A stretch of DNA of 64,000 nt from Methanotorris igneus Kol 5. Its GTDB lineage: Archaea > AGJL01 > Methanococci > Methanococcales > Methanococcaceae. Position numbers and translations under genes: made by a program. Position 1 is the stretch's first letter. The number at the start of each line of letters is the position of its first letter. Under the pieces are notes generated by a model that was not told the DNA's origin, did no database searches, and was given only the letters and a program-made list of their open reading frames with translations. The stretch spans positions 1,178,001 to 1,242,000 of the forward strand of contig NC_015562.1 of NCBI RefSeq assembly GCF_000214415.1, written 5' to 3'. This document shows positions 2,532 to 55,091 of the stretch, piece by piece.

Positions 2532-2573
2532 ATTTTTATGGCAAACAATATTTTGTCGTATAAATTAAAAATT

Positions 2574-4093: not shown

Positions 4094-4647
4094 GTTTGAA
4101 TACTCAGTCCATTAAAACAAGGATGGAAACACTAAGCAAAATAAAGAGTTTATGAAGTTACTACAAGAAAGTTTGAATACTCAGTCCATTAAAACAAGGA
4201 TGGAAACATTACAATAACATCTTCATCATCAACTAAAACATACCTTCTAAGTTTGAATACTCAGTCCATTAAAACAAGGATGGAAACCGGTTGGCATGAT
4301 GTTGAGTATTTAGTGGCAACGTTTGAATTACTCATCCATTAAAACAAGGATGGAAACTTTCTATTATTATTGTTTTGTAATCATGTTCAAGTTTGAATTA
4401 CTCATCCATTAAAACAAGGATGGAAACCGTGGTCTAAATCTTCTATGTGTTATTCTTCTATAGTGTTTGAATTACTCATCCATTAAAACAAGGATGGAAA
4501 CTAATAACCTCAGCCTGTCCCTTTGTAAAACCAACAGTTTGAATTGCTCATCCATTAAAACAAGGATGGAAACATTTTGACCGGGCATACTCCAATAACA
4601 ATTATATCTGGTTTGAATATCTCATCCATTAAAACAAGGATTGAAAC
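4094..4647 (+). CRISPR. CRISPR array: 8 repeats of 37 bp, 7 spacers
   Basis: Repeats start at 4094, 4171, 4251, 4321, 4391, 4465, 4537 and 4611; spacers are 33-43 bp. All repeats share a 3' part CCATTAAAACAAGGATGGAAAC, except the last, which has ATTG for ATGG. The 5' part is GTTTGAATACTCAGT in repeats 1-3, GTTTGAATTACTCAT in 4-6, GTTTGAATTGCTCAT in 7 and GTTTGAATATCTCAT in 8. The degenerate last repeat and the TATA-containing leader on the left both put the leader side at 4094. No cas genes lie in this window, so the effector type cannot be assigned. Confidence 0.97.
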
Positions 4648-6116: not shown

Positions 6117-6737
6117 ATGTCCATATTTTTCTTCAAAAGAAAACCAGAAAAAGAAGTTATGGAGCTTATAAAATACCACATAAACTTATCAAAAAAAGCT
6201 ATAGAAATACTAAAAGAATTTTTGGATGATAAAGATAAAGAGCATTTAAATAAAATTACGTCTATCGAAAAAGAAGGGGATGAAATAAGAAAAAAAGCAA
6301 TATTTAAGCTTTATGAGGCATTTCTTCCAAGTATGAGGAGGGAGTTAAATTACTCAATAGAAATTTTGGATGAGGTGTTAGATAGTGTCAATCATGGAGC
6401 AAAGATCTATGATTTGATGACTTTTGAGTTAGATAACAACATAAAAGAAAAATGCAAATTGGTTCTTGACATGTCCATTGAGATGCTTGATTGTTTGGTA
6501 AATGCAGTTAATGCTTTTGAAGAGGGGGGAAACTTTAGCGAGCATATAAGAATAATAAAGCAGAGAGAAGAGGAAATTGATGACATTCGTCATGAGATCT
6601 ATAGATATATGGTTAGTATGGAGATCAATAATTTTTGGGAAGGGAAGTTGATGAGTGATTTCGTTGATATGATAACCAATATAAGTGATTTAATTGAAGA
6701 TGTGGCAAATGAGTTCCAAGTAATATACTCAAGTTAA
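6117..6737 (+). CDS. PhoU-like regulator of phosphate permease (DUF47)
   Basis: 206 residues, largely helical, with the DUF47 pattern: an N-terminal KRKPEKEVMELIKYHINLS segment, paired acidic and metal-binding-type helices (EKEGDEIRKKA, KQREEEIDDIRHEIYR) and a C-terminal SDLIEDVANEF helix. Members of the family accompany Pit-type phosphate permeases and modulate them. The next gene on the same strand is such a permease, about 240 bases away across a GC-rich hairpin element. ATG 6117 follows a GGGGGA ribosome site. Confidence 0.88.
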   Translation: MSIFFFKRKPEKEVMELIKYHINLSKKAIEILKEFLDDKDKEHLNKITSIEKEGDEIRKKAIFKLYEAFLPSMRRELNYSIEILDEVLDSVNHGAKIYDLMTFELDNNIKEKCKLVLDMSIEMLDCLVNAVNAFEEGGNFSEHIRIIKQREEEIDDIRHEIYRYMVSMEINNFWEGKLMSDFVDMITNISDLIEDVANEFQVIYSS

Positions 6738-6740
6738 AAA

Positions 6741-6970
6741 GCTGACCTCCTCTCCGCCCTAAAGGGCGGAGGTTCCCATGGGAAACACCCTCTCATCCTC
6801 GTCGCCGAGGCGTCATTGGGCAGGTTATGTTCATCAGGCTGGGTCAGGCAGCCTTCGAAGAATATAATGGCAAAATCCTTTGGATTTTGCCGTATAATTT
6901 ATGGAATACTTGTATATAAATTCATCGATATCAAATCTCCTCCGCTCTAAAGAGCGGAACTTCCTTGACA
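6741..6970. mobile_element. Probable remnant of an IS200/IS605-type element (or derived MITE) with GC-rich hairpins
   Basis: The stretch is far richer in GC than its surroundings. It begins with hairpin CTCCGCCC-TAAA-GGGCGGAG (about 6754-6773) and ends with a related hairpin TCCGCTC-TAAA-GAGCGGA (about 6947-6964). Between them are AGGCTG..CAGCCT (6835-6855) and GGCAAAATCC..GGATTTTGCC (6871-6893). Short CTCCGCCCTAAAGGGCGGAG palindromes followed by TTCC are typical of the ends of archaeal IS200/IS605 elements; I rely on memory for that. No transposase or TnpB remains. A structured RNA is the alternative explanation. Confidence 0.5.
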
Positions 6971-10989: not shown

Positions 10990-11062
10990 TACCGCAGTTA
11001 TGTTCCAAATTATACGGCAAAACTTTTAGTTTTGCCAAATATTTCTAACGTACACGACTATA
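10990..11062. repeat. Partial palindromic element with GGCAAAAC hairpin
   Basis: Hairpin GGCAAAAC (11016-11023) / GTTTTGCC (11029-11036) is followed by the right-end sequence CGTACACGACTATA at 11049-11062, 13 of 14 bases matching the end at 13627. I found no matching left end nearby. ACCGCAGTTATG at about 10991 recalls ATAACCGCAGTA at 49224, in reverse orientation. It lies directly upstream of the protease gene. Confidence 0.6.
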
Positions 11063-13422: not shown

Positions 13423-13640
13423 TATAGTTGTGTGCGTTAGAGATATTTGGCAAAACCCTTTTGGGTTTTGCCGTATAATTTGGAGATATACTATTAGTAA
13501 ATTTTTAAGGATTGCATAACCATTTTAAATTTTAATGTATGGATAATAATTATTTAGAAATTCATTAACATATAAATAAGTTTAAAAATTAATGGCAAAA
13601 CCTTTAGGTTTTGCCGTAATATATTTCGCACACGACTATA
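13423..13640. repeat. Complete palindromic element C (218 bp)
   Basis: Left end TATAGTTGTGTGCG (13423-13436) and right end CGCACACGACTATA (13627-13640) are inverted repeats matching at 13 of 14 bases. Inside are two hairpins, GGCAAAACCC-TTTT-GGGTTTTGCC (from 13452) and GGCAAAACC-TTTA-GGTTTTGCC (from 13593). The core includes TTAGAAATTCATTAACATATAAATAAG, cut here into two parts: TTAGAAATTCATTA and ACATATAAATAAG. The same core occurs in the element at 54823-55091. No coding frame. Confidence 0.85.
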
Positions 13641-51226: not shown

Positions 51227-51390
51227 ATGCATCTCATTTGGATGAAATCAAACCGTAAGGTTTGAGTTGCAAAAATCTTTATTTTTGCTCAATCGGAGCG
51301 AAGCGGAGAGCTGCAAAAATCGAAGAGTTTTTGCTCAATTGGAGCAAAGTGGAAAGCCGCAAAACTGATATGTTTTGCTCAACTTTTTAA
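51227..51390. repeat. Hairpin-bearing degenerate tandem repeats
   Basis: After CAAACC-GTAA-GGTTTG, a unit of about 45 bases recurs: a hairpin GCAAAAAT-CTTT-ATTTTTGC, then TCAATCGGAGCGAAGCGGAGAGC; the next copy has GCAAAAATC-GAAGA-GTTTTTGC then TCAATTGGAGCAAAGTGGAAAG. A third partial copy has GCAAAACTGATATGTTTTGC. Copy 2 looks like a decayed version of copy 1. No gene. Confidence 0.7.
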
Positions 51391-54822: not shown

Positions 54823-55091
54823 TATAGCCGTGTGCGTTAGAAGGGTTTTTTGGCAAAATCCAAGGGATTTTGCCGTATATCTTTTGGCAAAACTGAAAGT
54901 TTTGCCGTATGTCTTTTGGCAAAACCCAAAGGGTTTTGCCGTAATTGTTGGTAAATTTTTAATGATTGTAGAATTATTTCAATTTTTTGGCAAAACCTAA
55001 AAGGTTTTGCCGTATATTTTAAGGGAGAATAAAGATTATTTAAAAATTCATTAGCATATAAATAACTTTAAAAAATTCGCACACGACTATA
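54823..55091. repeat. Complete palindromic element D (269 bp) with four GGCAAAA hairpins
   Basis: Left end TATAGCCGTGTGCG (54823-54836) and right end CGCACACGACTATA (55078-55091) are complementary at 13 of 14 positions. Four hairpins start near 54852, 54885, 54919 and 54989: GGCAAAATCC-AAG-GGATTTTGCC; GGCAAAACT-GAA-AGTTTTGCC; GGCAAAACCC-AAA-GGGTTTTGCC; GGCAAAACCT-AAA-AGGTTTTGCC. Outside the hairpins it is homologous to element C at 13423-13640 (TTAAAAATTCATTAGCATAT and TAAATTTTTAATGATTG). Confidence 0.88.

Follow-up and report, generated by a model that had tools for sequence, protein, structure and literature searches.

The GGCAAAA..TTTTGCC hairpins of the Methanotorris igneus genome are, with a probability of about two in three, copies of a ~30-bp non-autonomous mobile palindrome, (TT)AAT-GGCAAAA-(Y)1-3-loop3-(R)1-3-TTTTGCC-GTAT, which is REP-like, has multiplied recently in this archaeon and has its arms rebuilt by template switching. 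In this genome, a single contig of 1,854,197 bp, the exact GGCAAAA-N-TTTTGCC arrangement is found 223 times against 2 occurrences of the reversed control pattern, which bears out the excess expected from an earlier note on a 64-kb stretch of the contig (hereafter, the window). The window contains eight such hairpins, compared with 0.07 expected by chance and with none of 100 shuffles reaching eight. Seven had been reported in the earlier note, and all were found at their positions, with the inner pairs as listed and with the 11016-11036 copy on the minus strand, as claimed; the eighth, at 6869-6891, had been overlooked. The features of the window are given below, where TIR indicates a terminal inverted repeat and the slots are the hairpin positions within the TIR element.

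2540-2557, plus strand: decayed copy GGCAAAC-AATA-TTTTGTC-GTAT, adjoining a TIR at ~2574-2587
6869-6891, plus strand: eighth hairpin, 12 bases from the HgcC RNA gene
11016-11036, minus strand: left-slot hairpin of a truncated TIR element (single TIR, end ~11062)
13423-13640, plus strand: TIR element (MITE) with two hairpins
13449-13472, plus strand: hairpin with inner part CCC-TTTT-GGG, left slot
13594-13615, plus strand: hairpin with inner part CC(T)-TT-(A)GG, right slot
54823-55091, plus strand: TIR element (MITE) with four hairpins, TIRs TATAGCCGTGTGCG / CGCACACGACTATA
54852-54874, plus strand: hairpin GGCAAAA-TCC-AAG-GGA-TTTTGCC, left slot, first of a tandem array
54886-54906, plus strand: hairpin GGCAAAA-CT-GAA-AG-TTTTGCC, left slot, second of the array
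54918-54940, plus strand: hairpin GGCAAAA-CCC-AAA-GGG-TTTTGCC, left slot, third of the array
54989-55011, plus strand: hairpin GGCAAAA-CCT-AAA-AGG-TTTTGCC, middle slot, at an insertion point common to 13 sampled elements

The window also holds CRISPR direct repeats (CRISPR-DR7) at 4321-4647, in five Rfam-matched copies, and, at 51268-51385, a tandem of three hairpins that belong to another family (GCAAAA..TTTTGC, with linkers of the GAAGCGGAGAGC type) and also differ in their inner parts.

The palindrome is 19-24 nt long. Its 5' inner arm is nearly always made of pyrimidines (C or T) and its 3' inner arm of purines, and stem length changes pairwise, as in C/G, CC/GG, CCC/GGG and TCC/GGA. The GTA that had been said usually to follow the hairpin is found exactly 3' of it in 167 of the 181 sampled copies, a set that was partly GTA-selected, and also in 107/121 first-sample copies picked by perfect outer arms alone; for flank-nonredundant copies the frequencies at the four positions after the palindrome are G 0.92, T 1.0, A 0.88 and T 0.69.

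Most hairpins are nested in an element of ~147 bp whose terminal inverted repeats (TIR TATAGTCGTGTGCG) are imperfect; 709 kb of sequence contained 75 TIR pairs, a few of which overlap. With its TIRs, small size, many copies and no transposase gene, the element has the properties of a MITE. Alignment of 41 elements showed that the backbone is constant and that the hairpins occupy three slots, namely a left one just inside the left TIR, which is occupied by a single hairpin or by a tandem array of two or three, a middle one after TTATTTCAA, and a right one just before the right TIR. The GTAT of the hairpins is always on the same side within the element, and the left and right slots are also occupied by other palindromic modules. 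Copies of the element free of hairpins are present both here and in the same-genus genome, where, among the related elements examined, the backbone occurs without GGCAAAA hairpins (e.g. L086). One same-genus TIR element (L132:3391-3609) carries GTTGAATAA..TTATTCAAC and AACCTTCGGTT palindromes, indicating that other hairpin modules are common to both species. As for the target-site duplication of the element, alignments with the sister species show ambiguous TA/TATA junctions, and an autonomous parent transposon with the same TIRs was not found in a 60% sample of the genome. A full-length transposase gene between such TIRs at 663045-664421 was considered as the MITE parent and rejected, being part of a different IS: the hairpin-bearing MITE copy (L073) has been split by the insertion of this IS, which encodes a DDE transposase (PF01609, also ISC1217-like, PF04693) and has inverted ends of its own, AGRACTTTCGCAA.

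The hairpin is mobile on its own. A clean 30-bp in-frame insert, TTAATGGCAAAACCAAAGGTTTTGCCGTAT, is found in a polyferredoxin-like gene (G000:228333), with an empty site in the same-genus genome, and the ten extra residues are missing in 15/15 other readable orthologues of the polyferredoxin, which is the observation that establishes independent movement. A copy at the 3' end of a gene (1460058), with AATT on both sides, is insertion-like and is probably a second such event. Furthermore, for 44 of the 138 first-sample hairpins the 120 bases to each side are free of TIRs, a few of these being middle-slot copies in long elements. With these solo copies, the tandem arrays and the in-frame insertion, the earlier suggestion that the hairpin itself may multiply is well supported. 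In the empty-site comparisons with the sister species, 228333 alone is fully clean, most intergenic flanks being too diverged. The flanks of the hairpins are A/T-rich on both sides; AATT-like repeats occur at some sites, and the search for a target-site duplication gave no significant pairing with respect to permuted flanks, the best z value being 2.6 among 126 offset/length combinations.

Outside M. igneus the hairpin is rare. Of 60 relatives, 15 contain one or two matches and the others, among them the same-genus genome (G001), have 0; the single matches are mostly long, unpaired and chance-like. One genuine copy, hairpin GGCAAAATCTCTCGGGATTTTGCCGTAT within a homologous TIR element, was found in a member of another family of the order (G031). 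Among the matches listed for GTDB and viral contigs only scattered singles were found, in contexts that do not match, and the recurrent viral matches were rejected as instances of this element, as all of them have one conserved flank in common. The M. igneus genome is also generally rich in perfect palindromes, as indicated by 220 perfect hairpins per Mb with arms of at least 9 versus 54 in the same-genus genome (~4-fold) and 30 in shuffled sequence.

The claim that changes in the inner arms are compensated was evaluated on 1.109 Mb (60% of the genome), in a sample collected without conditioning on the inner bases and comprising 181 copies with 64 distinct inner sequences. Watson-Crick inner pairs were 365 of 380, as opposed to 286 (s.d. 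6.4, maximum 308 of 5000) when the right-arm letters were shuffled among copies, which confirms the claim, with counts that overstate the number of independent compensated events given that many copies occupy one slot of an amplified element. When only the 64 distinct inner sequences were taken into account, the values were 124/139 versus 103 (s.d. 3.8) on shuffling. Compensated pairs were also found at the same backbone position (TCC-CTT-GGA versus CCC-TTT-GGG, and CC-GAA-GG versus CT-GAA-AG), and differing hairpins were observed behind 75 identical upstream bases.

The loops are inverted in place. The middle slot provides 13 elements with one insertion point and near-identical flanks, of which 10 have CCTAAAAGG, one has the same minus one base, one has its exact reverse complement CCTTTTAGG, and the remaining one has CCTTTTGGG, corresponding to the flip plus one substitution. 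GTAT (once GTAC) is unmoved in these flips. Ten inner types were seen in both orientations relative to GTA, and a second, unrelated hairpin family of the same elements, GTTGAATAA..TTATTCAAC, shows CTACG in 7 and CGTAG in 5 copies, and CCGTAGG in 3 and CCTACGG in 1.

When a DNA polymerase switches template between the arms of an inverted repeat, the arms are known to become identical and the spacer to be inverted (PMC8604942); the same process has been put forward as one that generates hairpins and maintains them, with compensatory changes (PMC8794818). Of this signature, spacer inversion is observed in place, and arm homogenization is suggested by the compensated differences between copies, so that we infer template switching to be the cause of the compensation. 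This attribution is drawn from slots other than the middle one, where replacement of one hairpin by another is also possible; in the middle slot flips are present and an in-place double arm change was not seen. According to the mechanism that we propose, the palindrome would insert at A/T-rich sites, as shown for the polyferredoxin gene and likely for the second gene end, and very often at three A/T-rich positions of the ~147-bp TIR element, which would then carry the nested hairpin to new loci. As DNA is synthesized, the inverted arms would fold back on a single strand, with the polymerase switching template between them, so that one arm would be copied onto the other, with compensation of the inner changes as the outcome, and the loop would sometimes be inverted. 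Insertion itself presumably requires some enzyme.

The main rival explanation is that foldability was selected by a transposase, since lost, which copied only well-folded single-stranded hairpins, with the inner-stem subfamilies inserted separately. It is consistent with the anatomy of the unit, a short perfect palindrome with a 3-nt loop and an adjacent conserved tetranucleotide as in group 3 REPs, with mismatches that look like neutral decay after insertion, with the slightly different 3' flanks that same-slot hairpins sometimes have (753244 versus 803670), and with the presence of a Y1 gene in the same-genus genome. The requirement of a folded single strand is modelled on that of TnpA-REP, the transposase of REP sequences (PMC8266576). 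However, the search for a Y1/HUH transposase yielded 0 PF01797 matches in the M. igneus genome and one in the same-genus genome, and the hairpin that adjoins the Y1 element of the latter, CACCGCCC-TTTA-GGGCGGTG, is quite different, so that a Y1 enzyme was rejected as the present mover. Moreover, selection alone does not explain loops that flip in place. We therefore regard this explanation as unlikely, though worth keeping in mind, and template switching and selection by a transposase may both act.

Palindromes of another type were observed around the HgcC RNA (RF00062; window 6729-6856, minus strand), which is flanked on both sides by GC-rich palindromes resembling the hairpin near the IS200/IS605-type Y1 gene of the same-genus genome (CCGCCC-TTTA/TAAA-GGGCGG). 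HgcC is present here in six copies and missing at the syntenic position of the same-genus genome, in which a weak copy is located at a distance of 1.2 kb from the Y1 gene. Possibly, HgcC is an end, or an omegaRNA-like part, of Y1-type elements.

A functional RNA structure under selection, such as a terminator or a processing or regulatory stem-loop, would account for the strong covariation, the constant orientation within the element and the mostly intergenic location. A selected RNA should tolerate G·U more than A·C in its stems, an asymmetry that would blur only under equal selection on both strands, but in the 1.109-Mb sample the two mismatches are equally frequent (22 G·U versus 21 A·C), as in neutral decay after insertion, and it was on this symmetry that the RNA reading was rejected. 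The growth optimum of M. igneus is ~88°C, and near this temperature the predicted RNA fold of most hairpins is marginal or lost; DNA folding energies computed for 88°C from standard parameters were discarded as unreliable. None of the hairpins matches an Rfam family, one copy lies in frame within a coding sequence, the loop inverts freely and the hairpin is not conserved in relatives, all of which make this explanation improbable. Thus, of the two causes that the earlier note had offered for the covariation, the copying of a template that rebuilds the palindrome is retained on the basis of the in-place flips, the paired stem lengths and the unbiased mismatches, and the conserved RNA fold is not. 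Finally, that the hairpin is a mere internal part of the TIR element, which alone would move and leave solo hairpins as remnants, is very improbable, because, although most copies lie inside TIR elements and the middle-slot copy is common to the 13 sampled ones, the 30-bp in-gene insert carries no element sequence, three slots are filled singly or in tandem, and homologous elements exist without hairpins.

Among known systems, the mobile palindrome proposed here resembles group 3 REPs/REPtrons of Stenotrophomonas and Marinomonas, in which perfect palindromes of very small size, with loops of 3-4 nt and a neighbouring conserved tetranucleotide, occur in hundreds of mostly intergenic copies with tandem groupings (PMC8266576). 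It has the 20-50 nt palindrome and adjacent conserved tetranucleotide by which REPs are recognized, but the motif is ATAC/GTAT rather than GTAG, the associated TnpA-REP (Y1/HUH) gene is missing from the M. igneus genome, the host is an archaeon, and the hairpins are mostly nested in a TIR MITE and form direct tandem arrays instead of the inverted BIME pairs of REPs. The GC clusters of yeast mitochondria and the double-hairpin and repetitive hairpin elements of fungal and sponge mitochondria are also mobile short palindromes, which vary in presence between close relatives and have units that merge and shuffle (PMC4478555, PMC2800124, PMC7218506). All of these, however, belong to organelle genomes, and GC42 has a defined AG target site with conserved stems and variable loops, whereas the inner stems are hypervariable here. 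Rickettsia palindromic elements are palindromic repeats that insert in frame into protein genes (described in PMC10969869), but they are ~150 bp long and encode a conserved peptide, whereas the present unit is ~30 bp and lies mainly outside genes; the frequent in-frame insertion into coding genes, with a conserved peptide, that is typical of that group is not found, with one clear case among 44 solo copies. The LIMP/HyLIMP repeats of Lobosphaera are palindromic, with the loop in both orientations and, in HyLIMP, complementary mutations in the stems (PMC4524435); unlike the present family, they reside in a green-algal mitochondrion, their stems consist of repeated short units and mobility was not shown. 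Quasipalindrome mutation by template switching similarly homogenizes arms and inverts spacers (PMC8604942, PMC8794818), but that process is described for unrelated sites and not for an archaeal family of amplified mobile palindromes.

Covariation is normally read as proof of functional RNA structure. With more than 220 copies in one genome, strong covariation and the marks of DNA copying, the M. igneus hairpins can serve as a test case for the avoidance of spurious structured-RNA calls, and they are an example of hairpins that a MITE hosts and carries. The family is apparently undescribed so far in this lineage, no paper on this species and MITEs having been found in a search that mostly left out subscription literature. 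REP-like mobile palindromes would apparently be brought to an archaeon that lacks a known REP transposase, which raises the question of what moves them. A bolder and rather unlikely view is that these are the first archaeal REP-like palindromes to move without a Y1 enzyme, each copy being made by fold-back synthesis; if this were true, one arm would always be a fresh copy of the other and the palindrome would be regenerated during its own propagation.
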